DNA of 50,912 nt from an uncultured Candidatus Pelagibacter sp. (GTDB taxonomy: Bacteria; Pseudomonadota; Alphaproteobacteria; Pelagibacterales; Pelagibacteraceae): NCBI GenBank assembly GCA_905618895.1, contig CAJQTA010000044.1, positions 1 to 50,912 on the forward strand, in the 5' to 3' direction. Under the pieces are notes generated by a model. That model saw nothing but the letters and a program-made list of their open reading frames with translations. It ran no database searches and was not told the origin of the DNA. Made by a program: the position numbers and the translations under genes. This document shows, piece by piece, positions 13,422-33,694 of this stretch (positions within the stretch are counted from its first letter, which is position 1; each line of letters opens with the position of its first letter).

Positions 13422-14469
13422 AAATAATTTTTTAAATTATTGTTCAGATAATAAATTTGAAGTAAATATTAACCAAGTAAAAATTATAGAATTATTAATT
13501 AAATTTTATAAAAAAAATTTTAAAAAATCACTTTTTAAATTTTTATTTTCAAAAAAAAAAAACAAGCAAGGCTTTTATTTAATGGGTAGTGTTGGAGTGG
13601 GTAAAACTATGCTTTTAAATTTTTTTTATAATAATATAGATTTAAAAAAAAAAAGATTACACTTTAATGAATTTATGATTAACTTTCATGACTTTGTTCA
13701 TTTAGATAAAACAGGTAACTCAATTGAAATATTTGTAAAAAATTTAAAAAAAAACTGTGAACTTATTTATCTTGATGAGTTCCAAATAACAAACATTGTT
13801 GATGCTATGATTTTAGGGAAATTATTTGAAAAAATATTTAAAGAAAATATTAAAATTATAATTACATCAAATATTTCAATTAAAGATTTATATAAAGACG
13901 GCCTGCAAAGAGAACAATTCTTAACTTTTATCAACATGCTAAAGAATGAATGCCATGAACATGAATTAATAATTGAAGAAGATTATAGAAAGTCTCATAA
14001 CAATAAACCTGATCGATTTTTTTGCCCCATCAATGAAAAGTCAAACTTTAAGATTAATCAATTATTTAGAAAATTAACAAGAGGAAAAAAACTAGGAACT
14101 AAGAAATTAAATATAAAGGGTAGAGAATTTTTGATTCAAGAGTATTTTGAAAAAATTGCCAGATTTAATTTTGATGATTTGTGTGATAAAAATGTTGGTG
14201 CAGAAGATTACATAGCAATCGCTAAAGAATGCAATTTTATAGTAATTGAAAATATACCTAATTTTACAAATGATAATGTTAATAAACAACAAAGATTTAT
14301 TACATTAATAGATATAATTTATGAAAAAAAAATACCACTGATGACAAGTTCTGCTGTGGATCTAGAAAATTTCAGTTCCTCAACAAGCTTAGATCAACCA
14401 TTTAAACGCACCTTAAGTAGACTCCACGAATTAACATCATCAAACTTTTCACAACAAAATAAGATTTAA
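13408..14469 (+). CDS. zapE: ZapE-type (AFG1/LACE1) division ATPase
   Basis: The 353-aa AAA-like ATPase has Walker A MGSVGVGKTMLLNFFY and Walker B LIYLDEFQITNIVDAM, followed by IIITSNISIKDLYKDGLQRE, all characteristic of ZapE/AFG1. The C-terminal R(T)LSRLHELTS end is also typical. ZapE is a cell-division factor that acts on the Z-ring; mitochondrial relatives act in protein quality control. The gene is very A-rich, with long Lys runs. The start is ATG 13408, overlapping the cupin gene. The stop shares TTAA with the convergent photolyase. Confidence 0.88.
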   Translation: MINFKNNFLNYCSDNKFEVNINQVKIIELLIKFYKKNFKKSLFKFLFSKKKNKQGFYLMGSVGVGKTMLLNFFYNNIDLKKKRLHFNEFMINFHDFVHLDKTGNSIEIFVKNLKKNCELIYLDEFQITNIVDAMILGKLFEKIFKENIKIIITSNISIKDLYKDGLQREQFLTFINMLKNECHEHELIIEEDYRKSHNNKPDRFFCPINEKSNFKINQLFRKLTRGKKLGTKKLNIKGREFLIQEYFEKIARFNFDDLCDKNVGAEDYIAIAKECNFIVIENIPNFTNDNVNKQQRFITLIDIIYEKKIPLMTSSAVDLENFSSSTSLDQPFKRTLSRLHELTSSNFSQQNKI

Positions 14470-15887
14470 TTTTTTTTTAAAGATTGAAAAGCTGCGAGTG
14501 CTGCAGTACGTGCTTCTTCGTGTATAACCATAGGAGAAGGATAATCTTTACCAATAATTACTTTAATCTGTTCTTGGTATTTATTTTCTAATTCCCAGGG
14601 TTTATACAAAAATTTATTAGGCATATTTTTTAATTCAGGAACCCATTTTTTTGTGTAAGTTCCTTCTTTATCAAATTTTTCACCCTGTAAAATTGGGTTA
14701 AATATTCTAAAATAGGGAGCGGCATCTGCGCCGCAACCAGCAACCCATTGCCATTGTGCAACATTACTAGCTTTGTTGTAATCAACCAGACAGTTTTTGA
14801 AGTGTTTTTCTCCTTCCATCCAGTGAATTCTTAAATGCTTAACTAAAAAGGATGCAACTATCATTCTAACTCTATTATGCATCCAACCAGTTTCATATAA
14901 CTCTCTCATGCCAGCATCAACAATAGGGTATCCCGTCATTCCTTTTTTCCATCTTTCAAGAAATTTATTATTTGTTACCCAAGGAAAATTATCAAAGTCT
15001 TTTCTAAGGTTACCTTTTAGCATTTGAGGAAAATAATTTATTAAACTATGCGAGAATTCTCTCCATCCTAATTCATTAATATATTTTCTGTATCCCATAC
15101 CTTTAGACTTAATTTCTTGGCACTCATTCCATATAGTTTCGACATGGATTTGACCAAATTTTAAAAATGGAGATAATTTTGATGTTCCCTCTACAGACGG
15201 TATGTCTCGATTTTCACTATAATCTTTAATTTTATTTTTAATCAGACTTTGTAAGTATTTTTTTGCTTCATTTTCTGATGGTGTCCAGTACTTATCAAAT
15301 TTTTTAAACCAATCATTTTTTGGTAAAAAATCTTTTGGTGAAATAGTTTTTTTAAAAAAAATTGTTTTCTTTTGTTTTTTTTTAATTTTTAAGATCTTTG
15401 AAGGTATTTTATCCAAATACGTTTGTTCTGTCTTTTTCCAAAATGGAGTAAATACTTTATAGGGAGTACCATCATCTTTAGTTAACTCTTGAAACTCAAG
15501 TAAAATATTTCCTTTAAAGTATTTATAGCTAATTTCATTTTTAATAAATGTATCTCTTATTTTTTTACCATTACTAATTACATCTGGTTCATAAACTTTA
15601 TTCCAATAAATAGTTACATCATCTTTTTTTTTAATATTAGAAAATACTTTTATTTCATCGTCAGAAAGAATTTCTAATGAAATATTAAATCTATCTAAAT
15701 CAGTTTTGAAATTTTCTAAAGATTTTGAAAGCCACCATTTTTGAGCCTCTCTTTTTTTATCAAACAGCTTAGGATTATATATATATAATACAGTAACAGT
15801 CTCATGATTTTGACTTGCAAATGCTAACGCTTCATTTTTTTCAATTCTTATATCTTCTCGGATCCAAACAATTGCTTTTTTTGTCAT
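14466..15887 (-). CDS. phrB: Deoxyribodipyrimidine photolyase (class I CPD photolyase/cryptochrome family)
   Basis: The 473-aa length fits. The N-terminal alpha/beta antenna domain (MTKKAIVWIREDIR) precedes an FAD-binding helical domain with YINELGWREFSHSL, TGYPIVDAGMREL, GWMHNRVRMIVASFL and NVAQWQWVAGCGADAAPYF, all diagnostic for the family. It repairs UV-induced pyrimidine dimers with blue light, useful in sunlit surface water. The downstream minus-strand end overlaps zapE by 4 bases; upstream, 5 bases separate it from the ammonia-lyase gene, so it may ride on that transcript. Confidence 0.95.
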   Translation of the reverse strand: MTKKAIVWIREDIRIEKNEALAFASQNHETVTVLYIYNPKLFDKKREAQKWWLSKSLENFKTDLDRFNISLEILSDDEIKVFSNIKKKDDVTIYWNKVYEPDVISNGKKIRDTFIKNEISYKYFKGNILLEFQELTKDDGTPYKVFTPFWKKTEQTYLDKIPSKILKIKKKQKKTIFFKKTISPKDFLPKNDWFKKFDKYWTPSENEAKKYLQSLIKNKIKDYSENRDIPSVEGTSKLSPFLKFGQIHVETIWNECQEIKSKGMGYRKYINELGWREFSHSLINYFPQMLKGNLRKDFDNFPWVTNNKFLERWKKGMTGYPIVDAGMRELYETGWMHNRVRMIVASFLVKHLRIHWMEGEKHFKNCLVDYNKASNVAQWQWVAGCGADAAPYFRIFNPILQGEKFDKEGTYTKKWVPELKNMPNKFLYKPWELENKYQEQIKVIIGKDYPSPMVIHEEARTAALAAFQSLKKN

Positions 15888-15892
15888 ATAAA

Positions 15893-17035
15893 TTAGATTT
15901 TTTTTAAACCATCTTTCAATAATTTTTCATACATTGCTGTATCCGTTAGCCCCTCACACCCAAATAATAAAATTTTAGAATTTGAATTTAAATCTAATTT
16001 ACTAAGATATTCTTTTTTTTTATATAGACCAATTAACGCAATAATTCCTGGAACAGCACACTCACCAGCAATTATTTTTTCCTCAGATAATTTGATTTCT
16101 GCTAACATTGCAACTACTGTAGATATTTCGTCATCAGTTATGGTTAAACTGTAATTAGTTGCATTTTTTAATATTTCCCATGCAACAGTCGAAACATCTC
16201 CACAAGACATTCCACCCATTATTGTCTCATTAACAATATTAACAGTTGTTGCTTTATTGTTTGCTATACTCTCAAATACACAGTTTGCATTTTGTGGCTC
16301 TACAATAATAAATTTTGGTATACTGTTAGAAAATTTAGCAAATCCAGCAATCATAGCCGCAGCCATGCCGCCCACCCCTGCTTGCAAAAAGACATGAGTA
16401 AATGAATTATCTTTAATTTGATCTATAATTTCCTTGATCATAATTGTGTACCCAGCCATAATTAATTTTGGAATTTCTTTATATCCTTCCCAAGAGACAT
16501 CTTGGACTATTTCCCAATTATTTTGTTCTGACTGCTTGATACACTCCTGTAAGGATGCATCGTAATTTCCTTTAACTCTTATAACATCGGCGTTCAGATC
16601 TTTCATTGCCTTAGCCCTAGATTCACTTACGAATTCACTAATAAAGATTTTACATTTTAAACCGAGTCTTTGTGCGCCCCAGGCAACTGATCTACCATGA
16701 TTTCCTGCCGTAGCTGTAGCAAAGGTTACATTACCTTTTTCATTTGCTATTTTATTAACTGCAAATGCTCCACCAAGAGCTTTAAATGATTTTAAATCAA
16801 ATCTTTTATCTTCATCCTTGTAGTAAATTTCTTTAAACCCAAGCTCTCTGTTTAACTTATTAAGTTTACGTAATGGAGTGGGGACATATGATTCCCATTT
16901 GGAAATAGATTGAATTGCCTCATCTATAAATTTTTCAGGAAGTGAGGTTAATATTTTTTCTTTATCAAATTTGTAATTTTTATTTTCAATGAATGAAGGT
17001 ATTGACCAATTAGCATTCTCTATGATTGATTTCAT
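15893..17035 (-). CDS. dpaL: Diaminopropionate ammonia-lyase (PLP, DpaL/YgeX type)
   Basis: The 380-aa PLP fold-type II enzyme carries the Schiff-base lysine in DLKSFKALGGAFAVNKI, the phosphate-binding ATAGNHGRSVAWGA loop, and QAGVGGMAAAMIAGFA. The VSWEGYKEIPKLIMAGY segment is a close match to the DpaL/YgeX pattern rather than threonine dehydratase. DpaL converts 2,3-diaminopropionate to pyruvate and ammonia. It lies 5 bases after the gmaS-like gene on the same strand. That placement could mean an accessory amine or ammonia role in the methylamine module, or that it is simply a passenger. Confidence 0.85.
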   Translation of the reverse strand: MKSIIENANWSIPSFIENKNYKFDKEKILTSLPEKFIDEAIQSISKWESYVPTPLRKLNKLNRELGFKEIYYKDEDKRFDLKSFKALGGAFAVNKIANEKGNVTFATATAGNHGRSVAWGAQRLGLKCKIFISEFVSESRAKAMKDLNADVIRVKGNYDASLQECIKQSEQNNWEIVQDVSWEGYKEIPKLIMAGYTIMIKEIIDQIKDNSFTHVFLQAGVGGMAAAMIAGFAKFSNSIPKFIIVEPQNANCVFESIANNKATTVNIVNETIMGGMSCGDVSTVAWEILKNATNYSLTITDDEISTVVAMLAEIKLSEEKIIAGECAVPGIIALIGLYKKKEYLSKLDLNSNSKILLFGCEGLTDTAMYEKLLKDGLKKI

Positions 17036-17040
17036 TTAAA

Positions 17041-18366
17041 CTAACAATCAAGTGTACTATTTTTTTCCCACTCAGTTACTGGGCTCTTTTTATCAAAAGT
17101 TTCTTCTTGGTCAAAATTTTCAATTTCAGATTTTTTTAATTTTAAATAACTATTAATAGTATCAGCGCCAAATGCTTCTCTAATTTCTTTACTATTTTCT
17201 AACTGCTCTAAAGCATCTTCAATTGTATCTGGTAATCTTTTTAAATTTGGATAATTTTTATGATCAGTGTACATATTGCAAGATAATGGTTCACCAGGAT
17301 CTATTTTATAATTGACTCCATGTAAACCTGCAGCAATTACACCAGCTTGGAGTAAGTATGGATTTACTGCTCCATCCATTAATCTTAATTCAAATCTACC
17401 TTTATCTGGAACTCTTATCATGTGAGTTCTATTATTTCCAGCATACGATATGCTACTAGGTGACCATGTAGCTCCTGATTTTGTTGGTGGTGCATTTATT
17501 CTTCTATAACTGTTAATTGTTGGATTAAAAAAAGCAGTTAAAGGTTGTGCAAGTTTCATAATTCCACCTAAAAAATTATATGCCAATCTAGTTAATCCTA
17601 ATCGATCTCCATTATCTAAAAATTTATTTATTTTTCCATTCCACAAAGAAATATGAGCATGGCATCCATTTCCAGTTAAATTTTCAAAAGGTTTAGGCAT
17701 AAATGTTGCTCTTAACCCATGTTTTTCAGCTAAAGATTTAACCATATATTTAAAAAAAACATGTCTATCAGCGGTAATAAGACAATCAGTATAATCCCAA
17801 TTCATCTCAAATTGACCATTAGCATCCTCATGATCATTTTGATATGGATTCCATCCCATTGTAATCATGCTGTCACATATTTCTTTAATCAAATCATATC
17901 TTCGCATTAAGGCAGATTGATCATAACAAGGTTTTGATTGAGTATCTCTTGAGTCAGCAATTTTACTCCCATCTTCTGATATTAAAAAATATTCACATTC
18001 AACACCAGATTTCATAGTTAAGTTCTTTTTATTTAATTCTTTAATTTTTTCTTTAAGCATTATCCTTGGAGATGCTTTAACAGTTTTTCCACCCATCCAT
18101 AAATCGGAGGCTAACCATCCTATTTCTTTGTTCCAAGGAAGCTGAATAAGACTATCTGGATCTGGTATTGCAAACATATCAGTATCCGCTGGAGACATAT
18201 CGAGCCATGTTGCAAACCCAGCAAAACCTGCTCCATTTTTTTGCATCTCGTCTATAGCCTGTGCAGGTACCAATTTTGATCTCAACACACCAAATAGGTC
18301 AACAAAACTAATTAGAAAGTATTTAATTTTTTTAGTTTTAGCTATTTTAGATAGATTTTTAGACAT
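17041..18366 (-). CDS. gmaS: Gamma-glutamylmethylamide synthetase (glutamine-synthetase-like, GmaS), short paralogue
   Basis: The 441-aa glutamine-synthetase-family enzyme has catalytic landmarks MKSGVECEYFLI, NGCHAHISLW, NSYRRINAPPTKSGATWSP and FELRLMDGAVNPYL. Length and partners (a three-gene mgs set just upstream) match GmaS, which ligates methylamine to glutamate with ATP as the first step of the N-methylglutamate pathway. GlnT-type glutamine synthetase is the alternative. It differs clearly from its longer paralogue at 26961-28430, notably in the nucleotide-binding segment. There is no strong Shine-Dalgarno. DpaL follows 5 bases downstream. Confidence 0.78.
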   Translation of the reverse strand: MSKNLSKIAKTKKIKYFLISFVDLFGVLRSKLVPAQAIDEMQKNGAGFAGFATWLDMSPADTDMFAIPDPDSLIQLPWNKEIGWLASDLWMGGKTVKASPRIMLKEKIKELNKKNLTMKSGVECEYFLISEDGSKIADSRDTQSKPCYDQSALMRRYDLIKEICDSMITMGWNPYQNDHEDANGQFEMNWDYTDCLITADRHVFFKYMVKSLAEKHGLRATFMPKPFENLTGNGCHAHISLWNGKINKFLDNGDRLGLTRLAYNFLGGIMKLAQPLTAFFNPTINSYRRINAPPTKSGATWSPSSISYAGNNRTHMIRVPDKGRFELRLMDGAVNPYLLQAGVIAAGLHGVNYKIDPGEPLSCNMYTDHKNYPNLKRLPDTIEDALEQLENSKEIREAFGADTINSYLKLKKSEIENFDQEETFDKKSPVTEWEKNSTLDC

Positions 18367-18410
18367 AATTTATAATTACAATTTACTATTGTTGATCATT
18401 ATCTACAATA

Positions 18411-19739
18411 TTATTTTTTATTCTTTATACCTGGTATCCAATTAGTACCAGCTAGGGGCACTCTAGCCATTGCAGCAGATTCAACTGTTAATGCACATAG
18501 ATCTTCAGGCTCCAAATTATGTAAATCATTTTTACCAGAAGCTCTAGCTATAGTTTGAGCTTCAAGTGTCATAACTTTTAAATAGTTCGATAATCGTCTA
18601 CCACCAGCAACAGGATCAAAACGTTTCATTAATTCAGGATCTTGTGTTGTAATTCCCGCCGGGTCTTGCCCTTCATGCCAATCATCATAAGCTCCTGCTG
18701 TAGTACCTAATTTATTGTAATCTTTCTCCCACTTAGGATCATTATCACCCAATGCAATCATAGCAGCAGAGCCAATTGAAACTGCATCAGCACCAAGGGC
18801 CATTGCTTTGGCGACATCAGCTCCATTTCTAATTCCACCAGAAACTATCAATTGAACTTTTCTATGTTGATCTAGGTCTTGAAGAGCATCCACTGCAGGC
18901 CTAATACACGCTAAAGTAGGTTGGCCAACATTTTCAATAAACACCTCTTGTGTAGCTGCTGTTCCACCTTGCATACCATCTAGAACAACTACATCAGCTC
19001 CAGCTTTAACTGCTAAAGCAGTATCATAGTAAGGTCTTGCACCAGCAACTTTAATAAATATCGGAACTTTCCATCCAGTTATTTCTCTTAATTCTAGTAT
19101 CTTAATTTTTAAATCATCTGGACCTGTCCAATCAGGATGTCTACACGCAGATCTTTGATCTATTCCTTTTGGTAAAGTTCTCATTTCAGCAACACGATCG
19201 CTAATTTTTTGACCCAATAGCATTCCACCACCGCCAGGTTTAGCTCCTTGGCCTATAACAATTTCAATAGCATCTGCTTTTCTTAAATCATCTGGATTCA
19301 TCCCATACCTTGAAGGTAGAAGTTGGTAAATCAAATTTTTAGACTGTCCTCTTTCTTCAGTAGTCATTCCACCATCTCCAGTAGTTGTAGATGTTCCAGC
19401 CATGCTTGCTCCACGCCCCAAAGCCTCTTTAGCTCTACCTGACAATGCCCCAAAACTCATTCCAGCAATTGTGATAGGAATATCTAACTCTAAAGGTTTT
19501 TTTGCGTAACGAGTTCCTAAAGTTACTTTTGTATTACAAGTTTCTCTATATCCCTCTAAAGGATATCTGGACATTGAAGCACCAAGAAAAAGTAAATCAT
19601 CGAAGTGAGGAAGTTTTCTTTTTGAACCACCACCTCTGATATCATAAATTCCAGTTTCAGCTGCTCGTCTTATTTCTGAATTTGTATACTTATCAAAAGT
19701 CCATGAAATACGGGGATGTGTTTTTTTATTGTCTGACAT
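18411..19739 (-). CDS. mgsC: N-methylglutamate synthase FMN-subunit-like protein (MgsC/GlxD), lacks Fe-S cysteines
   Basis: The 442-aa protein matches the FMN/synthase domain of glutamate synthase: AGMSFGALSGRAKEALGRGA, QGAKPGGGGMLLGQKI, LDGMQGGTAATQEV and VSGGIRNGADVAKAMALGAD. Where the longer paralogue has DCYHCHTGRCPVG, this one has GAYDDWHEGQDPAG, so all three cysteines of the expected 3Fe-4S site are absent. In the methylamine pathway it would form the catalytic core that makes N-methylglutamate. It starts 2 bases after mgsB and lies 44 bases before gmaS. Confidence 0.8.
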   Translation of the reverse strand: MSDNKKTHPRISWTFDKYTNSEIRRAAETGIYDIRGGGSKRKLPHFDDLLFLGASMSRYPLEGYRETCNTKVTLGTRYAKKPLELDIPITIAGMSFGALSGRAKEALGRGASMAGTSTTTGDGGMTTEERGQSKNLIYQLLPSRYGMNPDDLRKADAIEIVIGQGAKPGGGGMLLGQKISDRVAEMRTLPKGIDQRSACRHPDWTGPDDLKIKILELREITGWKVPIFIKVAGARPYYDTALAVKAGADVVVLDGMQGGTAATQEVFIENVGQPTLACIRPAVDALQDLDQHRKVQLIVSGGIRNGADVAKAMALGADAVSIGSAAMIALGDNDPKWEKDYNKLGTTAGAYDDWHEGQDPAGITTQDPELMKRFDPVAGGRRLSNYLKVMTLEAQTIARASGKNDLHNLEPEDLCALTVESAAMARVPLAGTNWIPGIKNKK

Positions 19740-19741
19740 TG

Positions 19742-20425
19742 TTAGTAACTTGATACGTTATCAATATTAAAATTATATAGCTTTCTTGCTGAACCATACC
19801 TTTTAAAATTATCTGGTTTAATATTCTTTATTTCACTTTTTTTTAAAAGGTTAGAGATCTTATCTAAATGTTTTTTTTCCATTTTCTTTTCTATACAGTC
19901 AGCACCTAATGATTTAACAGAACCTTTAACAAATATATCTGCTTCGTAAAGACTATCTCCCAATGCCTCCCCCGCATCACCACAAACTACCATAGTTCCA
20001 GACTGAGCCATAAAAGCAGACATATGTCCCACTGAACCTTTAACTACAATGTCAATACCTTTCATTGAAATGCCACATCGAGAACTAGCATCTCCATCAA
20101 TTATAAGCAAACCACCATGAGCAGTAGCACCAGCGGATTGTGAGGCATTACCCTTTACATGAACAGTTCCAGACATCATATTTTCAGCCACACCTGTTCC
20201 AACATTTCCATCTATGGTTAGATAAGCTTTTTGATTCATTCCGCCACAATAATAACCGACATGTCCTTTGATTAAAACTTTCATTTCCTGGTTCAATCCC
20301 GCACATAATGCGTGACTTCCTTCAGGATTTATAATTACAAAATCTCTATCATTTTTTTTATTATCTAAATTTTGCAAAGTATTATTAATTTCTCTTAATT
20401 TTTTTTTCTTTAAATCTAATTTCAT
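19742..20425 (-). CDS. mgsB: N-methylglutamate synthase beta-helix subunit (GXGXG domain, MgsB/GlxC)
   Basis: The protein is made of the right-handed beta-helix repeats of the glutamate-synthase C-terminal domain: GHVGYYCGGM, GNVGTGVAENMMSG, GNASQSAGATAHGG, GSVGHMSAFMAQSG and GDAGEALGDSLYEAD. These place a structural subunit between MgsA and MgsC. The track start at 20437 is TTG. I prefer the ATG at 20425, which overlaps the mgsA stop as TAATG and is typical of coupled translation here; this gives about 227 aa. The Lys-rich N-terminus (MKLDLKKKKLR) has no obvious role. Confidence 0.8.
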   Translation of the reverse strand: MKLDLKKKKLREINNTLQNLDNKKNDRDFVIINPEGSHALCAGLNQEMKVLIKGHVGYYCGGMNQKAYLTIDGNVGTGVAENMMSGTVHVKGNASQSAGATAHGGLLIIDGDASSRCGISMKGIDIVVKGSVGHMSAFMAQSGTMVVCGDAGEALGDSLYEADIFVKGSVKSLGADCIEKKMEKKHLDKISNLLKKSEIKNIKPDNFKRYGSARKLYNFNIDNVSSY

Positions 20426-21309
20426 TATTTTCCCCAAGAATAGACAATACCAGGTTCAGGTTCAAAAATTTTTGCATTATTTACATCTGGTAAATGTGCC
20501 ATTGCTTGAAACTCTGATGCTATTGCAACATAGTTTTTTGTTTCTGCTATTACTGCAGGTTTACATGCTATTTCATCTCTGACAACTGCAAATCCTTTTC
20601 TAGTCCCTGCAATAAATGTGTAAAAACCATCTAAATCTTTAAGAGCAGAAGTAAGGGTGTCTTTTAAGGATTTATTATTTGATAAGCTGTTAGAGACATA
20701 TCCTGCGGCAACTTCAGTGTCATTTTCAGAATTGAAGGTATTACCTTTTTTAGTAAGTTTTCTTCTTAAATTATTATGATTTGATAAAGAACCATTGTGA
20801 ACCAAACATTCATCTTCCCCAGTAGAGTAGGGATGAGATCCATTTGTAGTGATTGCACTTTCTGTGGCCATTCTAGTATGACCTATTCCATGTGTTCCAC
20901 TAAAACTATCTAACTTAAATTTTTTAACCACATCTTTAGGGTTACCAACTTGTTTAAATATCTCTATTGAACGCCCATATCCAACTATTGATACTTTAGG
21001 AAAATTTGAATTTATTATTTCAATTACTTTTTTTGGTTGTTTCTGAGTTTTAAGAATTACATGATCAGAAATTTGATTTAACTTAGCTTTTTTGATCTTT
21101 TTAGATATTTCTTTTTTAAATTTATTAAAGTTTAAATCATTAATACATAAAGAAAATTTATACATTTTTTTACTTTCATCTTTATATATAGCAAAACCAG
21201 CACTATCAGGTCCACGAGACTCCATGTTGTTTAGCATTACAGATAAAAGTTTACCTAAATTTTTTTCAAATTTTTTTGTTTTTAAGTAGATACCAACAAT
21301 TCCACACAT
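20425..21309 (-). CDS. mgsA: N-methylglutamate synthase amidotransferase-like subunit (class II GATase, MgsA/GlxB)
   Basis: The 294-aa protein begins MCGIVGIY, so after Met removal Cys2 is the Ntn nucleophile of class II glutamine amidotransferases. TRMATESAITTNGSHPYS, CLVHNGSLSNHNNL and NSENDTEVAAGYV complete the glutaminase site. In the pathway it would release methylamine from gamma-glutamylmethylamide and channel it to MgsC. It is the first gene of the short module, with a 50-aa membrane ORF only 11 bases upstream. No Shine-Dalgarno is evident before its ATG, unlike the long paralogue. Confidence 0.8.
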   Translation of the reverse strand: MCGIVGIYLKTKKFEKNLGKLLSVMLNNMESRGPDSAGFAIYKDESKKMYKFSLCINDLNFNKFKKEISKKIKKAKLNQISDHVILKTQKQPKKVIEIINSNFPKVSIVGYGRSIEIFKQVGNPKDVVKKFKLDSFSGTHGIGHTRMATESAITTNGSHPYSTGEDECLVHNGSLSNHNNLRRKLTKKGNTFNSENDTEVAAGYVSNSLSNNKSLKDTLTSALKDLDGFYTFIAGTRKGFAVVRDEIACKPAVIAETKNYVAIASEFQAMAHLPDVNNAKIFEPEPGIVYSWGK

Positions 21310-21320
21310 AGTTTTTAGGT

Positions 21321-21473
21321 TTATTTTATTAAAGATATTAAGAAATCTTTATAGTAGATAAAATTACCTACCACAATGATGATAATAGCAGCTATTACAC
21401 CATACTTAGCTTTTGGAAAAACAACACCTCTTAGTTTACTGGGTCTAAGTTCTTCGTTGTTATTTTCAGTCAT
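21321..21473 (-). CDS. 50-aa single-pass membrane protein (not in ORF track), function unknown
   Basis: Reading the minus strand from ATG at 21473 gives an uninterrupted 50-codon ORF ending in TAA at 21321. It has an acidic, charged N-terminus (MTENNNEELRPSK), one strong hydrophobic segment (YGVIAAIIIIVVGNFIYY, residues about 24-41) and a short Lys-ended tail. It occupies almost all of the 21310-21473 gap, 11 bases before mgsA and just after the terminator that closes the amt unit. That fit argues for a real gene. It could be a partner for the transporter or module, but nothing in the sequence names its function. Confidence 0.65.
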   Translation of the reverse strand: MTENNNEELRPSKLRGVVFPKAKYGVIAAIIIIVVGNFIYYKDFLISLIK

Positions 21474-21487
21474 AATTCTTTATTTTT

Positions 21488-21530
21488 ATAAAAAAAAAGG
21501 GCGCCACAAACAAGTAGCGCCCAAATTTTT
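21488..21530 (-). terminator. Rho-independent terminator after amt/74-aa gene (nearly bidirectional)
   Basis: GGGCGC (21499-21504) pairs with GCGCCC (21517-21522) around a 12-base loop, a rare GC-rich stem in this A/T-rich DNA. On the minus strand it is followed by a run of about 11 bases that are nearly all U in the transcript (plus-strand A tract 21488-21498). The other side has AAATTTTT, so a plus-strand transcript would also meet a U tract. It sits 17 bases after the stop of the 74-aa gene. Confidence 0.9.
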
Positions 21531-21538
21531 AATTTATA

Positions 21539-21763
21539 TTACCATTCGGTAACATTGCTTTTGTGATCATTAGCACCATGTCTTTTCCTAGCTAATCTTG
21601 AAAGCTTTTCACTTTCTGACTTGTTAGTAACGACATGCCAGCCAATCCAAAAAACTACACCAAGAATAACCAGCAAAGTTTCAGTGGATCCTGCTCCCGG
21701 GTAAACTGCTCCGACAACTTCTTCAGCACTTAAATGATCTATCCAGTTTGTAACTGTAGCCAT
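21539..21763 (-). CDS. 74-aa single-pass membrane protein, co-transcribed with amt
   Basis: The small protein has a polar N-terminus (MATVTNWIDHLSAEEVV), one hydrophobic segment (TLLVILGVVFWIGWHVV, about residues 29-45) and a basic, polar C-terminus. Its ATG lies 12 bases after the amt stop. The Shine-Dalgarno TAAAGGAG overlaps that stop codon, so translation is probably coupled to amt. A strong terminator follows directly. I recognise no family. Location suggests an accessory or regulatory partner of the Amt transporter, which is inference. Confidence 0.75.
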   Translation of the reverse strand: MATVTNWIDHLSAEEVVGAVYPGAGSTETLLVILGVVFWIGWHVVTNKSESEKLSRLARKRHGANDHKSNVTEW

Positions 21764-21775
21764 ATATTTTCTCCT

Positions 21776-23176
21776 TTACCTAGTTGAAGAGGCGACTGCT
21801 TTTTCAGCATCTCTATCGTCCTCCATCATTTCATAGTCTAGTCCAGCTATTTCTACTTCACGTGGTATTCTTAATTTACCAAATCCGTTTAGTATTTTAG
21901 CTATGACATACCCTGGTAACATTCCAAGAACACCAAACATTATAATTGCTCCAAGGAATTGTCCCAGTGGGTTGATTGATGCATAAGTTGATCCGTCCCA
22001 CATAGCTCCAACACTGTATCCAGATGAAGGATAGCCATTCAAAACAAATCCACAAATTACAAGTCCAGCAAATCCAGCATAACCATGTACTGCTACTGCA
22101 CCAACTGCATCATCGATTTTGAACTTACGTTCAACCCAATAATGCATTTTATATGCAATAACAACACCGATCGCACCAATAAGCATTGCTTGTATCGGAT
22201 GATACAAATCATTACCTGCAGATGCACAGATGATGCCAGCCAGTCCACTTGAGTAAGTCCAGAAAGGATCACCTTTGGCGACCACGTATCCAGCCAATAA
22301 TCCACCTGATAGTGACATCAGGAAGTTATAGGTTATTCCACTCAGTGTGGTTGGAGTTACATATATGTTTGTTGCTGTCCAGTATGTTACACCTTCCATT
22401 CCATACTCAGGTCCAAGATCAAATATCGGAATATTACATGCCGCATAAAATCCCCAGAAACCAGTATAGATTAAAAATAATCCAACTGTTACTAGCCATG
22501 GGTTTCTTGGTCCTATATTTCTTGGCTCACCACTTGATGAGAATTTTCCAATTCTAGGTCCTAAAACGATTAGAACACCTAAAGCAAATCCACCTGCAAT
22601 TGCGTGAATTACTCCTGATGCATAAGCGTCATGATATCCTAAAATCTTGAGCATCCATCCATCAAAATGCCATCCCCAAGCAGCGTCAATTACCCAGAAA
22701 AATGAACCTATTGCAATTGCTAAAATACCAAATGCAAAAGTTGTAATTCTTTCAATGATTGCTCCAGAAACGATAGAAGCAGCTGTCCATGAAAATAGTA
22801 AGAATGCAGCCCAGAATACTCCACTTATGTGGTCACCTAAGTTAACCGCCATAAATTCAGAGTTAGCCAAATACCATTTTGCACTAAAAGTACTTTCGTC
22901 AGTAATTAGTGCAGCACTCTCATTCATTATTGATGGTGCTATTCCCGGTCCTGTTGGGAATGCCCAGTAAATCCACCAACCAAAGAAAAACCAAGTTACC
23001 GTTACTAACGGTATTACCATGGTATTTTTCATTAAAGTATGTTGGTGATGCTTATAACGTGAAGCTCCAACTTCATACATACAGAACCCGACGTGAATCA
23101 AGAACATTAATACTACTGTTACCCAGTAATAAAATTCTGTAAATATAACTGTAAGAGCACCTAATTGGTCAGTCAT
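21776..23176 (-). CDS. amtB: Ammonium (methylammonium) transporter, Amt family
   Basis: The 466-aa protein is strongly hydrophobic, with about 11 membrane segments. Conserved Amt-type stretches include GVFWAAFLLFSWTAASIVSGAIIERI, SGVIHAIAGGFALGVLIV and VAVHGYAGFAGLVICGFVLNG, which contain the conserved pore-region His residues. Amt proteins move ammonium, and many accept methylammonium. Placement between two glutamine-synthetase/glutamate-synthase-like modules fits uptake or recapture of ammonia or methylamine. The ATG has one of the strongest Shine-Dalgarno sequences in the window. The 125-base leader upstream contains only weak hairpins. Confidence 0.92.
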   Translation of the reverse strand: MTDQLGALTVIFTEFYYWVTVVLMFLIHVGFCMYEVGASRYKHHQHTLMKNTMVIPLVTVTWFFFGWWIYWAFPTGPGIAPSIMNESAALITDESTFSAKWYLANSEFMAVNLGDHISGVFWAAFLLFSWTAASIVSGAIIERITTFAFGILAIAIGSFFWVIDAAWGWHFDGWMLKILGYHDAYASGVIHAIAGGFALGVLIVLGPRIGKFSSSGEPRNIGPRNPWLVTVGLFLIYTGFWGFYAACNIPIFDLGPEYGMEGVTYWTATNIYVTPTTLSGITYNFLMSLSGGLLAGYVVAKGDPFWTYSSGLAGIICASAGNDLYHPIQAMLIGAIGVVIAYKMHYWVERKFKIDDAVGAVAVHGYAGFAGLVICGFVLNGYPSSGYSVGAMWDGSTYASINPLGQFLGAIIMFGVLGMLPGYVIAKILNGFGKLRIPREVEIAGLDYEMMEDDRDAEKAVASSTR

Positions 23177-23178
23177 AA

Positions 23179-23189
23179 TCTCTCTCCTT
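23179..23189 (-). promoter_or_regulatory. Strong Shine-Dalgarno AAGGAGAGAGA for amt
   Basis: On the minus strand AAGGAGAGAGATT runs directly into the ATG, with GGAG 7 bases from the start. The same A[AG]GGAGAGA string precedes tmoX, tmm, the long glnT-like gene and its glxB partner, whereas most genes here have no clear Shine-Dalgarno. Confidence 0.8.
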
Positions 23190-23301
23190 ATTAGTTTTTG
23201 AAAGACTATAAAATTTATACAGGTGTGACAAACTATTCATTGATTAAAAAACCCTGTAATCACGACAGTTTTTAAAAATTACTCAACTCTAGAGTGAAGT
23301 G

Positions 23302-23712
23302 TTAAAATTTTAAGTATGCTTTTTTCAAATCAACAAGAGGGTGTTTTGGAGACATTTGGAACTTAACTAAAAGCTCTCTTGCGATCATGTCTCTATCTTG
23401 TTGGTTGTCAGGTAGTTTGATTGATTTTGGAATAGTTACCCAACCATTAGCATTTCTACAAAATACAGCCGGTCTATCTTCTTCATAACCCATATGAACA
23501 TCTTCTAACCAGTTGAGATCATCCCATCCCATGGCTTCAACATATTTTTTCAAGAATGGAGTTATTTTTTTATAATCAGGTAATAGATTAACATCATATC
23601 TATAACCGATATGCTGTCCAATCATTTTTTCTCTAGCAGTCTCTTTAGATTTACCACCTAGTATTATTTTCTTTTCTTTTTTAAATTTTGTTTTTGTTTT
23701 TTTCTTAACCAT
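23302..23712 (-). CDS. 136-aa conserved-looking protein between glxD-like and amt, function unknown
   Basis: The N-terminus is extremely basic (MVKKKTKTKFKKEKKIILGG), much like the start of the GlxD-like protein encoded just upstream. The rest looks like a compact globular domain, with WDDLNWLEDVHMGYEEDRPAVF and ANGWVTIPKSIKLPDN, without signal peptide or membrane segment. The gene starts 9 bases after glxD with an AAGGGG-type ribosome site and is followed by the 125-base gap before amt. I do not recognise the family. Position suggests an extra subunit or helper of the long GlxBCD module. Confidence 0.7.
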   Translation of the reverse strand: MVKKKTKTKFKKEKKIILGGKSKETAREKMIGQHIGYRYDVNLLPDYKKITPFLKKYVEAMGWDDLNWLEDVHMGYEEDRPAVFCRNANGWVTIPKSIKLPDNQQDRDMIARELLVKFQMSPKHPLVDLKKAYLKF

Positions 23713-23721
23713 AAATACCCC

Positions 23722-25146
23722 TTATATTTTATGAAAGTTATCTACACCAACTGTGTAGTTGGTCCCTGTTAAAGGAACTTTAGCTAACGCTGAAGCTTCC
23801 ATTGTTAAAGCAGCTAAATCTTCAGGCTCTAAAGAGTGAATGTTAGTTTTACCACAAGCTCTTGCTAAAAGTTGAGCCTCCAATGTCATTGCATGTAAGT
23901 AGTTGTAAACTCTTAAAGCAGCATCATCAGGGTTTAATCTAGATCTTAATTTAGGATCTTGTGTAGCAACACCAACTGGACAACGTCCAGTATGGCAGTG
24001 GTAACAGTCACCAGCTTTAACACCCATTTCTTTTTCAAAGTTTGCTTCTGGTATATCTTTGTTACAGTTCAAAGCTATTAAAGCACCAGTTCCAATTGCT
24101 ATTGCGTCAGCACCTAGTGCCAAAGCTTTCGCCATATCTGCACCGTCTCTAACACCACCTGCATAAATTAAAGTTACTTGTCCAGTTTTACCAACATCAT
24201 CAATAGCTCTTCTTGCTTCTCTGATTGCAGCAATTCCTGGAATACCAGTATTTGCAGCAGCTATGTGAGGACCTGCTCCAGTCGAACCTTCCATACCATC
24301 TAAAAAGATTGAGTCAGGATTACATTTTGCAGCCATACGAACATCATCATAAACTTTTGATGCACCTAGTTTTAATTGAATGGGTACTTTATTTTTTGTT
24401 AACTGTCTTAATTCTTCAACTTTTAGAGCTAAATCATCTGGACCTAACCAGTCAGGATGTCTTGCTGGAGATCTTTGATCAATACCAGATGGTAGAGATC
24501 TCATTTCTGCAACTTGATCAGTAACCTTTTGACCCATTAAATGTCCACCCATTCCAACTTTTTGTCCTTGACCAATAAATACCTCGATTGCATCAGCAAG
24601 TTGAGCGTGATGGGGGTTAAAGCCATATCTTGATTGAATACATTGGTAATACCATTTTTCAGAATATCTTCTTTCATCTGGAATCATTCCACCTTCACCA
24701 GAACATGTAGCACTTCCAGCCATTGTTGCTCCTCTTGCTAAAGCAGTTTTTGCTTCATAAGAAAGTGCACCAAAACTCATACCCGTAACATATACTGGTA
24801 TATCTAACTCAATTGGGTTTTCACAATTTGGTCCAATTATAGTTTTTGTTTCACATTTCTCTCTATAACCTTCGATCACAAACCTTGTAAGAGTACCTGG
24901 TAAGAAAACTAAATCATCAAATGTTGGAATTTTTTTCATTAATGCCATTCCACGCATTCTGTATCTCCCAAGCTGAGCTTTAATATGAATGTCGTCTATA
25001 ACTTCAGGGGTAAAAATAGCATTATGACCTAATAGACTTTTATTTCTTTTTCCTTCTTCATGCACATGAACGTCAGCTTTTCCACCAACATTACCGTTTG
25101 TTTTTTTTAATTTTTTTCCGTTTTTTTTAGTTTTCTTTTTAGCCAT
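23722..25146 (-). CDS. glxD: Glutamate-synthase FMN/Fe-S domain protein (GlxD-like), long paralogue
   Basis: The 474-aa protein is the FMN and 3Fe-4S domain of glutamate synthase as a separate subunit. TGMSFGALSYEAKTALARGA, GQGQKVGMGGHLMGQKV, LDGMEGSTGAGPH and AGGVRDGADMAKALALGAD are conserved. DCYHCHTGRCPVGVATQ keeps the cysteine cluster that the short paralogue has lost. It has an added Lys-rich N-terminal extension of about 20 residues (MAKKKTKKNGKKLKK). The ATG overlaps the glxC stop as TAATG and is preceded by AAAGGAG. It probably makes glutamate or a substituted glutamate from an amidotransferase-released amine. Confidence 0.85.
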   Translation of the reverse strand: MAKKKTKKNGKKLKKTNGNVGGKADVHVHEEGKRNKSLLGHNAIFTPEVIDDIHIKAQLGRYRMRGMALMKKIPTFDDLVFLPGTLTRFVIEGYREKCETKTIIGPNCENPIELDIPVYVTGMSFGALSYEAKTALARGATMAGSATCSGEGGMIPDERRYSEKWYYQCIQSRYGFNPHHAQLADAIEVFIGQGQKVGMGGHLMGQKVTDQVAEMRSLPSGIDQRSPARHPDWLGPDDLALKVEELRQLTKNKVPIQLKLGASKVYDDVRMAAKCNPDSIFLDGMEGSTGAGPHIAAANTGIPGIAAIREARRAIDDVGKTGQVTLIYAGGVRDGADMAKALALGADAIAIGTGALIALNCNKDIPEANFEKEMGVKAGDCYHCHTGRCPVGVATQDPKLRSRLNPDDAALRVYNYLHAMTLEAQLLARACGKTNIHSLEPEDLAALTMEASALAKVPLTGTNYTVGVDNFHKI

Positions 25147-26000
25147 TATATAGCTCCTTTCTTTTCATGAGGTTCTAAATTATCATAATTCCAAAGTTTT
25201 TTCCCTGCGACTATTTTTGTCATTTTACTGACGTCAAATTTTTCACCAATTTCTGCGACTTTTAATTTTCTTTTTAACCAGTCTTGGTCACTATCGGTTA
25301 GATCAGAAGGAACTGCGTCACTTCCAAAAGAACCAATTTTACCGCCTATAAATATTGTTCCATCATACATTGAGTCTCCTAAATTTATTCCAACATCACC
25401 TAGAATAATTATTCTTCCTCTTTGCATCATAAAACCAGTAAATGCTCCAGCATCACCACCAACAATAATAGTTCCACCCTTCATATCAATACCAGTTCTA
25501 GCACCAACACTACCTTTACAAATTAAATCTCCACCTCTAATAGCTGCACCAAAACAAGACCCAGCATTTTTTTCTATAACAACTTTTCCAGCCATTAAGT
25601 TTTCTGCACAAGACCAACCAACTCTACCATTAATTCTTACAGTAGGTCCATCGCAAGATCCCATACCAAAATAGCCTAAACTTCCTTCAAAAATTAAATT
25701 TAGTTTATTTAAAATACCAACACCTAAGCTATGCTTTCCTTGAGGGTTTTTGATTACGATTGTTCCAAAACCTTGGCTCATTAAATTATCTATCTCTTTA
25801 TTAGCTTCTGGAGCTGTCATTTCTTTAACATCTAGCTCTGTTCTTTTATTAAAATCTACATCGTAAGTGCCAAAATAATAAAGGTTTTCACCTTCATCAG
25901 GATTAAAAAACTTTTGTTGAGTTCTTCCTGTCAAAACTTCTGAGTGCATACCCATTGATTGGGACTTTGTTTTTTTTTCTGTAGCCTTTAAATTTGCCAT
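25146..26000 (-). CDS. glxC: Glutamate-synthase GXGXG beta-helix subunit (GlxC-like), long paralogue
   Basis: The 284-aa protein has an N-terminal extension of about 90 residues (including FNPDEGENLYYFGTYDVDF) absent from the shorter paralogue, then the GXGXG beta-helix: GSLGYFGMGSCDGPTVRING, GRVGWSCAENLMAG, GSVGARTGIDMKGG, GDAGAFTGFMMQRG and GDVGINLGDSMYDG. It would form the structural bridge between GlxB and GlxD. Start ATG 26000 overlaps the glxB end by 13 bases, and the stop overlaps the glxD start by one base. The whole module is thus translationally coupled. Confidence 0.85.
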   Translation of the reverse strand: MANLKATEKKTKSQSMGMHSEVLTGRTQQKFFNPDEGENLYYFGTYDVDFNKRTELDVKEMTAPEANKEIDNLMSQGFGTIVIKNPQGKHSLGVGILNKLNLIFEGSLGYFGMGSCDGPTVRINGRVGWSCAENLMAGKVVIEKNAGSCFGAAIRGGDLICKGSVGARTGIDMKGGTIIVGGDAGAFTGFMMQRGRIIILGDVGINLGDSMYDGTIFIGGKIGSFGSDAVPSDLTDSDQDWLKRKLKVAEIGEKFDVSKMTKIVAGKKLWNYDNLEPHEKKGAI

Positions 26001-26932
26001 ACTTTTACCTCTCCATCATATGGATCATATGTATCTATCTCTTGTGGTAGAACTGATCTGATTGCTATTTCTTCTGAACCCATTGCCACTAAATCATCTG
26101 ATTCATATAGAACCAAAGGCTTTGCAGCCATAGTATCTTTTGCCATTCCCAAAGAATCTTTGGTTGCTACAAAATATGTAAACACACCATCAAGGCCTGT
26201 TAAAGAAGCTTTCATACCCTCTTCAAGAGACGCTCCTTCTCTCATTTTTTGGGCAATATAAACAGCGATTAATTCTGAATCACATTCAGACATAAATCTC
26301 ATACCCTTATTCTCAAGTAATCTTCTGTTGTTCCAATAGTTAGTTAATTGACCATTGTGAACTACAGATACATCACTGAAGGGATAACCCCAAAAAGGAT
26401 GAGCAGACTTGATATCAACACCAGATTCTGTAGCCATTCTTGCATGGCCGATCGCATGCGTTCCAACAAGTTTATCTAAACCGTATCTATCACAAACCAT
26501 CTTAGCATTACCCAAGTCTTTAATTACCTCTAATGATTTTCCCATAGAAAGAATTTCAACCCCCGGAATACTTTCTATCTTTTGAGAAAACTCTAATAGA
26601 TCTTTTTTGTCATATGAAATTTCATATCTTAATGAATAGGGCAGTACCCTTTCTTCTTTAACTATTTTAGCATCTAACTCCAACAAGTATTGATCAACAA
26701 TTTTTTTTCTTTCATCATAAACAGAAACATCTTCCATTATAGATGAACTTCCTTCACCAACATTTTCTCCAACTTTAAAACGCATGATAAAATTTTTACC
26801 ATCTGTATCACCATATAAAGCATAACCAGTGGAATCCTCACCTCTGTGTTTTAATGCTTGTAGCATCCCCTGTAGTTCACTTCCTACATTGGAGGATTTT
26901 CCTCTATGAATTAAACCTGCGATACCACACAT
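25988..26932 (-). CDS. glxB: Class II glutamine amidotransferase subunit (GlxB-like), long paralogue
   Basis: The 314-aa protein starts MCGIAGLIHRG, giving the catalytic Cys2. ARMATESGVDIKSAHPFWG, VVHNGQLTNYWNNRRLL and SECDSELIAVYIA complete the Ntn glutaminase domain. It hydrolyses an amide to feed ammonia, or an amine, to GlxD. Its start has a strong AAAGGGAGAGA Shine-Dalgarno 6 bases before ATG, unlike mgsA. It lies 28 bases after the long glutamine-synthetase-like gene, so all four form one unit. Confidence 0.87.
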   Translation of the reverse strand: MCGIAGLIHRGKSSNVGSELQGMLQALKHRGEDSTGYALYGDTDGKNFIMRFKVGENVGEGSSSIMEDVSVYDERKKIVDQYLLELDAKIVKEERVLPYSLRYEISYDKKDLLEFSQKIESIPGVEILSMGKSLEVIKDLGNAKMVCDRYGLDKLVGTHAIGHARMATESGVDIKSAHPFWGYPFSDVSVVHNGQLTNYWNNRRLLENKGMRFMSECDSELIAVYIAQKMREGASLEEGMKASLTGLDGVFTYFVATKDSLGMAKDTMAAKPLVLYESDDLVAMGSEEIAIRSVLPQEIDTYDPYDGEVKVWQI

Positions 26933-26935
26933 ATT

Positions 26936-26946
26936 TCTCTCCCTTT
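26936..26946 (-). promoter_or_regulatory. Strong Shine-Dalgarno AAAGGGAGAGA for glxB-like gene
   Basis: The minus strand reads AAAGGGAGAGAAAT before ATG (GGAG 6 bases away). It is one of five near-identical GGAGAGA ribosome sites in the methylated-amine region. Confidence 0.75.
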
Positions 26947-26960
26947 GTTGATAATTAAGA

Positions 26961-28430
26961 TTATGGTAGACAATCTAGATAAGTATCTAGATCCCATTGA
27001 GTTGTTGCACCTAAAAATTTTTCCCATTCATCATTTTTATACCAATGGAAAACTTTGTACATTTCATCTGGCATAGCTGATTTTATAACCTCATCTTCTG
27101 CTAAACGATTTAAAGCTTCGCCAAGACTCATTGGTAATTTTTTAACTATTTTACCAGCAGCTTGAGCTTCATACATGCTTCTAGACTCAGGCTTTCCTGG
27201 ATCAATATTATTTGTTATTCCATCATCAAAACATTTTAATAATCCAGAACCCATTAAATACGGATTATGCATTGAATCAACTGAACGATATTCAAATCTT
27301 CCTGGCGCAGACACTCTTAATCCACAAGTTCTATTTTGAAATCCCCAGTCAGCATAAACAGGAGCCCAAAATCCCGTATCCCATAATCTTCTATATGAGT
27401 TCACAGTAGAAGAGCCAATTGCGGTTAGCGCACCCAAATGTTTCATTACTCCACCGATAGCCTTTAGACCAATTTTACCTGGTAGCTGAATATCATCAGT
27501 ATCGGGCATAAAGGTATTTGTTCCACCTTCAACGTAAGTAAATACCTCATCCATCCCTGGTAGAGATTTGTGAGATAGTTTATTAACCACATCTTTTCCA
27601 CCTGTCCATAAAGACATATTGGTATGACAGCCACTTGCAGAAACACCCATGAATGGTTTTGTCATAAAACAAGCTATTAAATTAAACTCTCTAGCAACCT
27701 GCGCACAAATTTGTCTATAAGTTGACAGCCTATCTGCATTTCTTAAAACATCATCATACATCCAGTTTAATTCTAATTGTCCTGGTGCATCTTCATGATC
27801 ACCTTGAATCATATCAAAACCCATTGCTCTAGCGTATTTAAAAACTTGCATGAAAACTGGTCTTAGAGACTCAAATTGATCTATGTGATAACAATAAGGT
27901 TTAGAAAAACCTTTACCAGTAGGTGAGCCATCTTCATTTTTAGTTAACCACATCATTTCTGGCTCCGTTCCAACTCTTAATTGGTAGCCATGTTTCTTTT
28001 TAAATTCTTGAGCATGTATTCTTAAATTTCCACGACAATCTGAAGTTAGGTGAGCACCCGGATTATCTCTTTCTTCTCTATTTCTAAAGCAAGTAACGTA
28101 TACTCTTGCTACTTTTTTATCCCAAGGAAGCTGACAAAAAGTTTCAGGATCTGGTATACCAACTAGCTCTTTTGCTTCTGGACCATACCCTATATAATCA
28201 CCATGACGATCAACAAACAAGTTTGCTGTTGCTCCGTAAACTAATTGAAAACCCTTTTCACAAGTTCTTTCCCAATGATCAGTAGGAATACCTTTTCCAA
28301 CAACTCTTCCAGTTACAGAAATAAATTGAAAATAAATATATTCAATACCTAGCTCATTGATTTTTGCTCTAACTTGTTTTACTAGCTTTTCTCTTCCTGG
28401 CTGTGCAACATGTTTGTCTAAATCTGTCAT
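26961..28430 (-). CDS. glnT: Glutamine-synthetase-family ligase (GlnT/type III-like), long paralogue
   Basis: The 489-aa member of the GS superfamily has family landmarks: RVGTEPEMMWL, GDHEDAPGQLELNWMYDD, SASGCHTNMSLW, NSYRRLWDTGFWAPVYADW, and FEYRSVDSMHNPYL. The nucleotide and Arg-binding region differs from both classical GS and the short paralogue. It may make glutamine or a gamma-glutamyl amide of an amine, and substrate is open. It heads the glxBCD unit and is preceded by the FAD oxidoreductase 72 bases away. A strong AGGGAGAGA ribosome site marks ATG 28430. Confidence 0.82.
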   Translation of the reverse strand: MTDLDKHVAQPGREKLVKQVRAKINELGIEYIYFQFISVTGRVVGKGIPTDHWERTCEKGFQLVYGATANLFVDRHGDYIGYGPEAKELVGIPDPETFCQLPWDKKVARVYVTCFRNREERDNPGAHLTSDCRGNLRIHAQEFKKKHGYQLRVGTEPEMMWLTKNEDGSPTGKGFSKPYCYHIDQFESLRPVFMQVFKYARAMGFDMIQGDHEDAPGQLELNWMYDDVLRNADRLSTYRQICAQVAREFNLIACFMTKPFMGVSASGCHTNMSLWTGGKDVVNKLSHKSLPGMDEVFTYVEGGTNTFMPDTDDIQLPGKIGLKAIGGVMKHLGALTAIGSSTVNSYRRLWDTGFWAPVYADWGFQNRTCGLRVSAPGRFEYRSVDSMHNPYLMGSGLLKCFDDGITNNIDPGKPESRSMYEAQAAGKIVKKLPMSLGEALNRLAEDEVIKSAMPDEMYKVFHWYKNDEWEKFLGATTQWDLDTYLDCLP

Positions 28431-28432
28431 TA

Positions 28433-28441
28433 TCTCTCCCT
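28433..28441 (-). promoter_or_regulatory. Strong Shine-Dalgarno AGGGAGAGA for glnT-like gene
   Basis: The minus strand reads AGGGAGAGATA before ATG, with GGAG 5 bases from the start. It is shared in form with the amt, glxB, tmoX and tmm sites and fixes the start codon. Confidence 0.75.
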
Positions 28442-28502
28442 CTAATGAATTTTTATTTAACGAACCGTAACTGAAAAAATTATTTGTGTCTAGACTTGAA
28501 GT

Positions 28503-29831: not shown

Positions 29832-29932
29832 AAAGAAATATTATTTTTTTGGACAAAAAAGAATACAATTTTTTTTAGAACTATTAATTATATATATAAA
29901 ATATATACTATAAGCTCTCTTGAAATAAGCAG

Positions 29933-30283
29933 CTAATAACTTATGTTTTTTAATGTATCTAGATATTCTTTAAACTCTTTAATAAACGTTTCGCTAGGCA
30001 TTATATTCTTTATTCGCTGATCTGTTGAAGTTTTTTCAAGATGAAAGAATCCTTTTTCACAAGCTTCATTAATTATTAAAGCAGATTTTGGTCTAGAAGT
30101 TTTAAAAAGTTTTGTTTTTAAACTTTCAACAGACAATTTTTCATTTAGTTTATATGCAGACATTACTAATAACATCATATGATAGTGAGAGGGTGACTTT
30201 CTAAAAAAATAGTTACTTGAAGTATGTGACTGCTTCATTTGATCTTCCCAAAAATTTAATAAATTCTTGCTGCTATCAGACAT
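29933..30283 (-). CDS. Small helical protein, possible MarR-like winged-helix regulator
   Basis: The 116-aa protein lies 2 bases after tdm. Its centre reads like a winged helix: LSVESLKTKLFKTSRPKSALIINEACEKGFFHLEKTSTDQRIKNI, with a recognition-helix-like stretch and then a polar wing ending in the DQR pattern common in MarR-type wings. There is no membrane segment. The family match is weak and by eye only. If it is a regulator, it would be the only candidate local one for tdm and tmoX. A 101-base gap separates it from the next gene. Confidence 0.5.
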   Translation of the reverse strand: MSDSSKNLLNFWEDQMKQSHTSSNYFFRKSPSHYHMMLLVMSAYKLNEKLSVESLKTKLFKTSRPKSALIINEACEKGFFHLEKTSTDQRIKNIMPSETFIKEFKEYLDTLKNISY

Positions 30284-30285
30284 TG

Positions 30286-32613: not shown

Positions 32614-32665
32614 TGCCAATGTAAATTTTAATAATTCTAAGTTAGCATAATATAATCAAAGGGGA

Positions 32666-32694
32666 TTGACTATAAATTTAAATGGGAACATACT
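32666..32694 (+). promoter_or_regulatory. Putative sigma-70 promoter for tmoX
   Basis: TTGACT (32666-32671), a 17-base spacer and CATACT (32689-32694) give a reasonable -35/-10 pair in the 114-base tdm/tmoX divergent gap. The predicted start near 32701 would leave a short leader containing the AAGGAGAGA ribosome site. Assigned by eye only. Confidence 0.4.
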
Positions 32695-32711
32695 TGAATA
32701 AACATAATGTT

Positions 32712-32720
32712 AAGGAGAGA
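32712..32720 (+). promoter_or_regulatory. Shine-Dalgarno AAGGAGAGA that fixes the tmoX start
   Basis: AAGGAGAGA lies 10 bases (counted from GGAG) before the ATG at 32728. The ORF-track start at 32707 would place this site inside the coding region, so 32728 is the real start. It gives a clean signal peptide. Confidence 0.85.
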
Positions 32721-32727
32721 GAATATA

Positions 32728-33672: not shown

Positions 33673-33694
33673 GGATAAAAGTTATTAAATTAAG

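Follow-up and report, generated by a model that had tools for sequence, protein, structure and literature searches.

In SAR11 bacteria an ammonium/methylammonium-type transporter (Amt) is inherited as a unit with two small single-pass membrane proteins, P74 and ORF50. ORF50, the smaller of the two, is encoded in a window of 50,912 nucleotides (the whole stretch of DNA analysed here) from an uncultured Candidatus Pelagibacter sp., and with somewhat better than even confidence we propose that it is a putative N-in single-pass inner-membrane accessory subunit of Amt, together with P74. SAR11 bacteria are among the most numerous in the ocean and import ammonium and methylated amines. ORF50 and P74 are concrete candidates for Amt control in this group, where the PII regulator was not found. 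The features of the window that bear on this proposal are:

ORF50, 21321..21473, minus strand: 50-aa single-pass membrane protein gene, predicted N-in, ATG at 21473, TAA stop at 21321-21323
P74, 21539..21763, minus strand: 74-aa single-pass membrane protein gene, predicted N-out, with a strong Shine-Dalgarno sequence
Amt, 21776..23176, minus strand: ammonium/methylammonium-type transporter (Pfam Ammonium_transp), from the P74-associated subfamily
Hairpin GGGCGCTAC-TTGTTT-GTGGCGCCC, 21499..21522, minus strand: between P74 and ORF50, 9 pairs of which 7 are G-C
T tract, 21490..21498, minus strand: nine T following the hairpin, terminator-like
mgsA2, 20425..21309, minus strand: glxB-like glutamine amidotransferase, downstream neighbour here and optional in relatives
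GS2, 17041..18366, minus strand: type III glutamate-ammonia ligase family, GmaS-like (TIGR03105, 613 bits vs a cut-off of 470)

The frame that a sequence-only reading of this DNA had placed at 21321-21473, strand unstated, exists exactly there on the minus strand, with the 50-codon translation MTENNNEELRPSKLRGVVFPKAKYGVIAAIIIIVVGNFIYYKDFLISLIK, and it does end 11 bases (21310-21320) before the mgsA start codon at 21309. Among 61 relatives searched, ORF50 has 22 full-length matches, with identities down to 49% and every frame open. GTDB contigs, when scanned, contained 483 ORF50-related stretches, the best 80 of which are all Pelagibacteraceae/Pelagibacterales records, the isolate HTCC9565 among them. 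Loss of the frame in relatives, named earlier as grounds for dropping the gene, was looked for and not found: all 35 distinct orthologous coding sequences keep the sense frame open, and all 35 carry a stop in every one of the five remaining frames. For these 35 orthologues mean pN is 0.22, mean pS 0.63 and mean pN/pS 0.35, with pN lower than pS in 595/595 pairs, the synonymous-site bias that had been proposed earlier as a check. Heterozygosity at codon positions 1, 2 and 3 is 0.27, 0.13 and 0.49, the third position being the most variable. Judged from these codon patterns, ORF50 is shown, far beyond chance, to be a genuine gene kept by purifying selection.

Four other signals around ORF50 were rejected. 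An artefact of A+T-rich spacer as its source is ruled out by the frame and substitution tests, and an antisense ORF at 21376-21552 on the plus strand was dropped, the antisense frames being closed in 35/35 ORF50 orthologues. An apparent single TAA inside ORF50 outside the genus arose where the profile overran a genuine earlier stop; the frames themselves are open. Weak matches to a protein of about 480 aa (E 0.04-1, many genomes) fall on a helix of an amino-acid ABC permease (L025) and are due to chance, since both segments are hydrophobic.

The ORF50 protein is 45-54 aa long in relatives and is built from an acidic and Asn-rich head, the basic motif PSKxRxxxFPKAKYG, a transmembrane helix at about residues 25-41 and a short hydrophobic C-terminal tail. 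Thirteen residues are invariant in the genus (M1, P11, K13, P20, K21, K23, Y24, G25, A29, I33, Y41, K42 and S47). The basic segment RPSKLRGVVFPKAKYG gives a charge of +5 over the 16 residues preceding the hydrophobic stretch and there is no net charge behind it, so that the protein is predicted to be N-in by the positive-inside rule. The AlphaFold2 model has a single helix at residues 22-40, with pLDDT about 90, and a kinked extension at 42-49 (mean pLDDT 75, with residues 31-40 at 92) and, with the charge distribution, agrees with the membrane segment described earlier. Neither ORF50 nor P74 has relatives in Pfam, NCBIfam or PHROG, a profile search of the PDB found no solved-chain relative for either, and ORF50 has no match to a P-II domain in Pfam or NCBIfam. 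Lacking a Pfam or NCBIfam model, both proteins are likely to stay 'hypothetical' in annotation or to be missed below its length cut-off.

The claim that ORF50 had been overlooked holds for the ORF track used; it fails for HTCC1062, where the gene is almost certainly annotated as SAR11_1312, as we infer from the locus numbering rather than from the record itself. The amt gene of HTCC1062 is SAR11_1310, and an intergenic region at 1245732-1245856 divides it from SAR11_1309 (PMC2704228). We found that Amt begins at 1245857, exactly past that region. Downstream, glxBCD is SAR11_1313-1315, and SAR11_1316 has been called a GmaS homologue under the same annotation, TIGR03105, that GS2 passes (PMC3160333). 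Exactly two ORFs, P74 and ORF50, lie between SAR11_1310 and SAR11_1313-1315, so that by exclusion P74 is SAR11_1311 and ORF50 is SAR11_1312. No mention of either locus was found in the literature searched.

The usual order of transcription in SAR11 is SoxB-GS1-mgsA1-mgsB1-mgsC1-P136-Amt-P74-ORF50-(mgsA2-mgsB2-mgsC2)-GS2-PLP-Phr, where the block in parentheses is optional. By profile, ORF50 was matched in 95/197 Pelagibacterales genomes; P74 and Amt are likewise each present in 95/197, and the sets differ by two genomes alone. In one of these (G202) the contig is inverted inside P74 (L195), as in a chimera. In the other (G004), Amt, P74, mgs1 and P136 are deleted, GS1 is a decayed stub, and ORF50 has lost its N-terminal half, only the membrane helix being left, joined towards mgsA2 (L092). 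The natural deletion in G004 thus runs from within GS1 to within ORF50 (L092:6950-7560, minus strand), and ORF50 decays once Amt is gone. The triad also holds together in three genomes of another family, f2 (G171, G189 and G195), where GS2 lies 21-28 kb off or on another contig; mgs1 and P136 are missing as well in G189 and G195. The ORF50 homologues of this family are shorter but clear and lie directly behind Amt-P74 (for example MTEDNKQERPSRMQNVAFPKAKYGLYLAIFLICLCLFLIYKDSIF). GS2 is present in 134/197 genomes, 42 of which have no Amt, and an intact ORF50 occurs in 0/42. As the triad is kept in the f2 loci while its neighbours change, and as GS2 alone is not accompanied by an intact ORF50, the module is Amt-P74-ORF50, and SAR11 genomes inherit it whole. 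The shared 95-genome sets make a stronger case for two small single-pass proteins beside one Amt than the sequence-only reading could. Within SAR11 the linkage of these genes is partly the inheritance of a block.

The weight placed earlier on mgsA as a meaningful neighbour did not survive. The mgsABC2 block is missing in about half of the orthologous loci, ORF50 is retained there about 20 nt before GS2, and mgsA was rejected as its functional partner. The strongest rival explanation takes ORF50 for a membrane tether that holds the soluble GS2/GmaS-like and mgs2 enzymes near the Amt exit, for immediate capture of ammonium or methylammonium. Its position, about 20 nt before GS2 or about 10-20 nt before mgsA2 in most loci, is consistent with this, as is the retention of GS2 in all triad genomes whose locus or contigs are unbroken, so that GS2 may yet be the partner, and a protein might dock on the basic cytoplasmic segment. 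However, the 42 genomes that have GS2 with neither Amt nor an intact ORF50, the f2 genomes in which ORF50 stays with Amt-P74 and not with GS2, and the many loci lacking mgsABC2 make a tether quite improbable. Alternatively, ORF50 could be a conserved small membrane protein unrelated to Amt, with a general membrane or stress role, fixed beside it by low rearrangement in SAR11. Gene order is strongly conserved across the whole SAR11 block, as such an explanation would have it, but an intact ORF50 without Amt occurs in 0/197 genomes though the rest of the block varies, and in family f2 the three genes changed place together. We consider a role unrelated to Amt rather unlikely.

Outside SAR11, the partner that follows this Amt is P74. 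Across 240 genomes of Alphaproteobacteria, the Amt subfamily (membership cut-off E<=1e-90) and P74 occur in an identical set of 22 genomes, P74 directly follows Amt wherever the contig permits, and a survey of the phylum added one further genome with both (G603). Amts at about 50% identity (the second copy in G314 and G599) are without P74. The P74 protein has a conserved YPxxGxE motif ahead of its helix and W..WH inside it. No convincing ORF50 homologue was found outside SAR11 in the 240 genomes: of four matches, two are SAR11, one is a weak match of 21 residues and one lies on a chimeric MAG contig. This last match, which would have put ORF50 in another order (G399, L266), was rejected, the MAG contig being fused to SAR11-like DNA; it looks chimeric, with another organism's leu/asd genes and a SAR11-like ORF50-GS2. 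The presence of P74 with Amt across Alphaproteobacteria, and of ORF50 in SAR11 only, points to P74 as the older partner and ORF50 as a SAR11 addition. Since P74 tracks the Amt subfamily outside SAR11, small membrane partners appear to be a habit of this Amt, and since Amt-P74 occurs without ORF50 in other Alphaproteobacteria, ORF50 is dispensable for this Amt in general.

The spacer between P74 and ORF50 in the window folds at -21.4 kcal/mol vs -8.7 for shuffles (z -4.8), and its G+C-rich stem and T tract have the predicted shape of an intrinsic terminator. Sixteen bases separate the T run from the ORF50 ATG, close to the 15 or so estimated earlier. A hairpin is present between P74 and ORF50 in 138/138 spacers. 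There are 36 distinct stems with paired changes (GGGCGCTAC/GTAGCGCCC, GAGGGCACA/TGTGCCCTC, GGGCACACATC/GGTGTGTGCCC and GCAAAGGACACTG/CAGTGTCCTTTGC), the covariation being judged from a listing of the stems and not by a formal covariance test. The distance from hairpin to start is 8-29 nt in all loci but one (61 nt, with an uncertain choice of start), in line with the very short leader proposed earlier. The T tract (at least 5 T of 8) is found in 128/138 loci and is lost in 10, including L193 and L194 of family f2, and the hairpin stays in these, which suggests a role for it beyond termination.

A Shine-Dalgarno sequence of 5-8 nt precedes P74 in 139/139 loci, and Amt also has a strong ribosome site; for ORF50, none of at least 4 nt was found in 142 genes. 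The sequence is missing in 33/43 genes of the window. As its absence is usual in this genome, the border between P74 and ORF50 is where strong translation, which extends from GS1 to P74, gives way to a unit with weak marks. The P74-ORF50 spacer showed no sigma-70-like site, and no Rfam family scored above its gathering score in 14000-34000, spacer included. The stem lies just 8-11 nt before the ATG in some loci, which leaves little space for a promoter outside the hairpin. The spacer possibly permits read-through (attenuation), carries a hairpin for mRNA stability, or holds a promoter that escaped recognition and gives an almost leaderless start. Intercistronic hairpins of the puf-operon type can provide more mRNA for the upstream than for the downstream genes of one unit. 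The P74-ORF50 hairpin resembles these in lying within one unit, where it could favor the upstream genes; unlike them, it is followed in most loci by a T tract like that of an intrinsic terminator.

The same hairpin, close before the start in every spacer and mostly followed by a T tract, would suit a leader peptide or upstream ORF that controls the downstream nitrogen genes and has no job as a peptide, and ORF50 is indeed a short ORF directly ahead of enzyme genes. The amino-acid sequence is conserved along 50 codons, fixed motif and membrane helix included, which argues against such a peptide; ORF50 has no run of regulatory codons, and both it and the hairpin persist where the enzyme genes lie elsewhere, so that we regard a leader peptide as very improbable. 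A small hydrophobic peptide like a type I toxin, which ORF50 resembles in size and single transmembrane helix and in nothing further, is barely credible for a deeply conserved single-copy gene at a fixed locus behind Amt that has no antisense ORF kept, no antitoxin RNA above Rfam gathering scores (14000-34000) and no repeats or mobile context seen.

PII/GlnK is the standard post-translational regulator of Amt and plugs AmtB with its T-loop. A search for PII (PF00543) gave no match in 46 genomes of the genus; the same search was positive in 13/14 control genomes. The title of a nitrogen limitation study by Smith et al. in 2013 reportedly terms the response of HTCC1062 PII-independent. With no PII found in the SAR11 genus, a small membrane-embedded partner could assume part of Amt control. 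As an accessory subunit, ORF50 would pack its helix against the Amt trimer. Its basic juxtamembrane motif would then lie on the cytoplasmic side, at the place where other Amts are plugged by GlnK, and might adjust the activity, assembly or lifetime of Amt. The hairpin may keep the dose of ORF50, and of the mgs2/GS2 genes that follow it, below that of Amt-P74, through partial termination or differential stability of the mRNA. More speculatively, and in our estimate doubtfully, SAR11 may have swapped PII control for a membrane-embedded one, with the alphaproteobacterial P74 (predicted N-out) and the SAR11-specific ORF50 (predicted N-in) as dedicated single-pass subunits of Amt, in what would be the first Amt complex to have small integral subunits.

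As with GlnK/PII and AmtB, the candidate regulator gene is near Amt and its proposed action is at the cytoplasmic face. Unlike GlnK, which is a soluble trimeric signal protein of 112 aa, ORF50 is a 50-aa membrane peptide. KdpF of KdpFABC is a small single-pass protein encoded with its transporter. AcrZ (49 aa, partner of AcrB) and MgtS are small single-pass modulators of transporters (PMC10710835). ORF50 shares the size (about 30-60 aa) and the one transmembrane helix of these three proteins, each tied to one transporter, and like KdpF it is encoded and inherited with its transporter, in the same 95-genome set with two explained exceptions. Unlike them, its partner would be Amt, as gene linkage suggests, and no sequence similarity to solved chains or to Pfam, NCBIfam or PHROG families was found. 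The small protein sP36 of Methanosarcina mazei inhibits AmtB1, in a lineage without control by uridylylated GlnK (PMC10714827). ORF50, too, may be devoted to controlling an ammonium transporter. In contrast to ORF50, sP36 lacks a transmembrane helix, is a cytoplasmic protein that relocates to the membrane, and acts through GlnK1 (PMC10714827); ORF50 has the helix and belongs to a genus in which no PII was found in 46 genomes. The literature search found no conserved integral small partner of Amt. ORF50 is therefore best taken as a new family among the small single-pass transporter modulators, with a putative function, and not as an established Amt regulator.

Methylamine clusters of roseobacters carry amt beside N-methylglutamate-type genes (PMC7574528, PMC5520151). 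The SAR11 Amt lies beside such genes as well, so it may transport ammonium or methylammonium, or both of them. The window has two paralogous mgsABC/glxBCD glutamate-synthase-like sets, at 18411-21309 and 23722-26932 (both minus strand), with mgsA about 35% identical between them, and each set has its own glutamine-synthetase-like gene. The second set comes and goes cleanly, as one block, in the interval from ORF50 to GS2. In one genome (G023), two tandem copies of P74, with 81 and 72 aa, separate Amt from ORF50 (L081:7367-7834, minus strand). P136, at 23302-23712 on the minus strand of the window, encodes 136 aa without a Pfam or NCBIfam match and lies behind mgsC1 in other Alphaproteobacteria too, at 66-76% identity.
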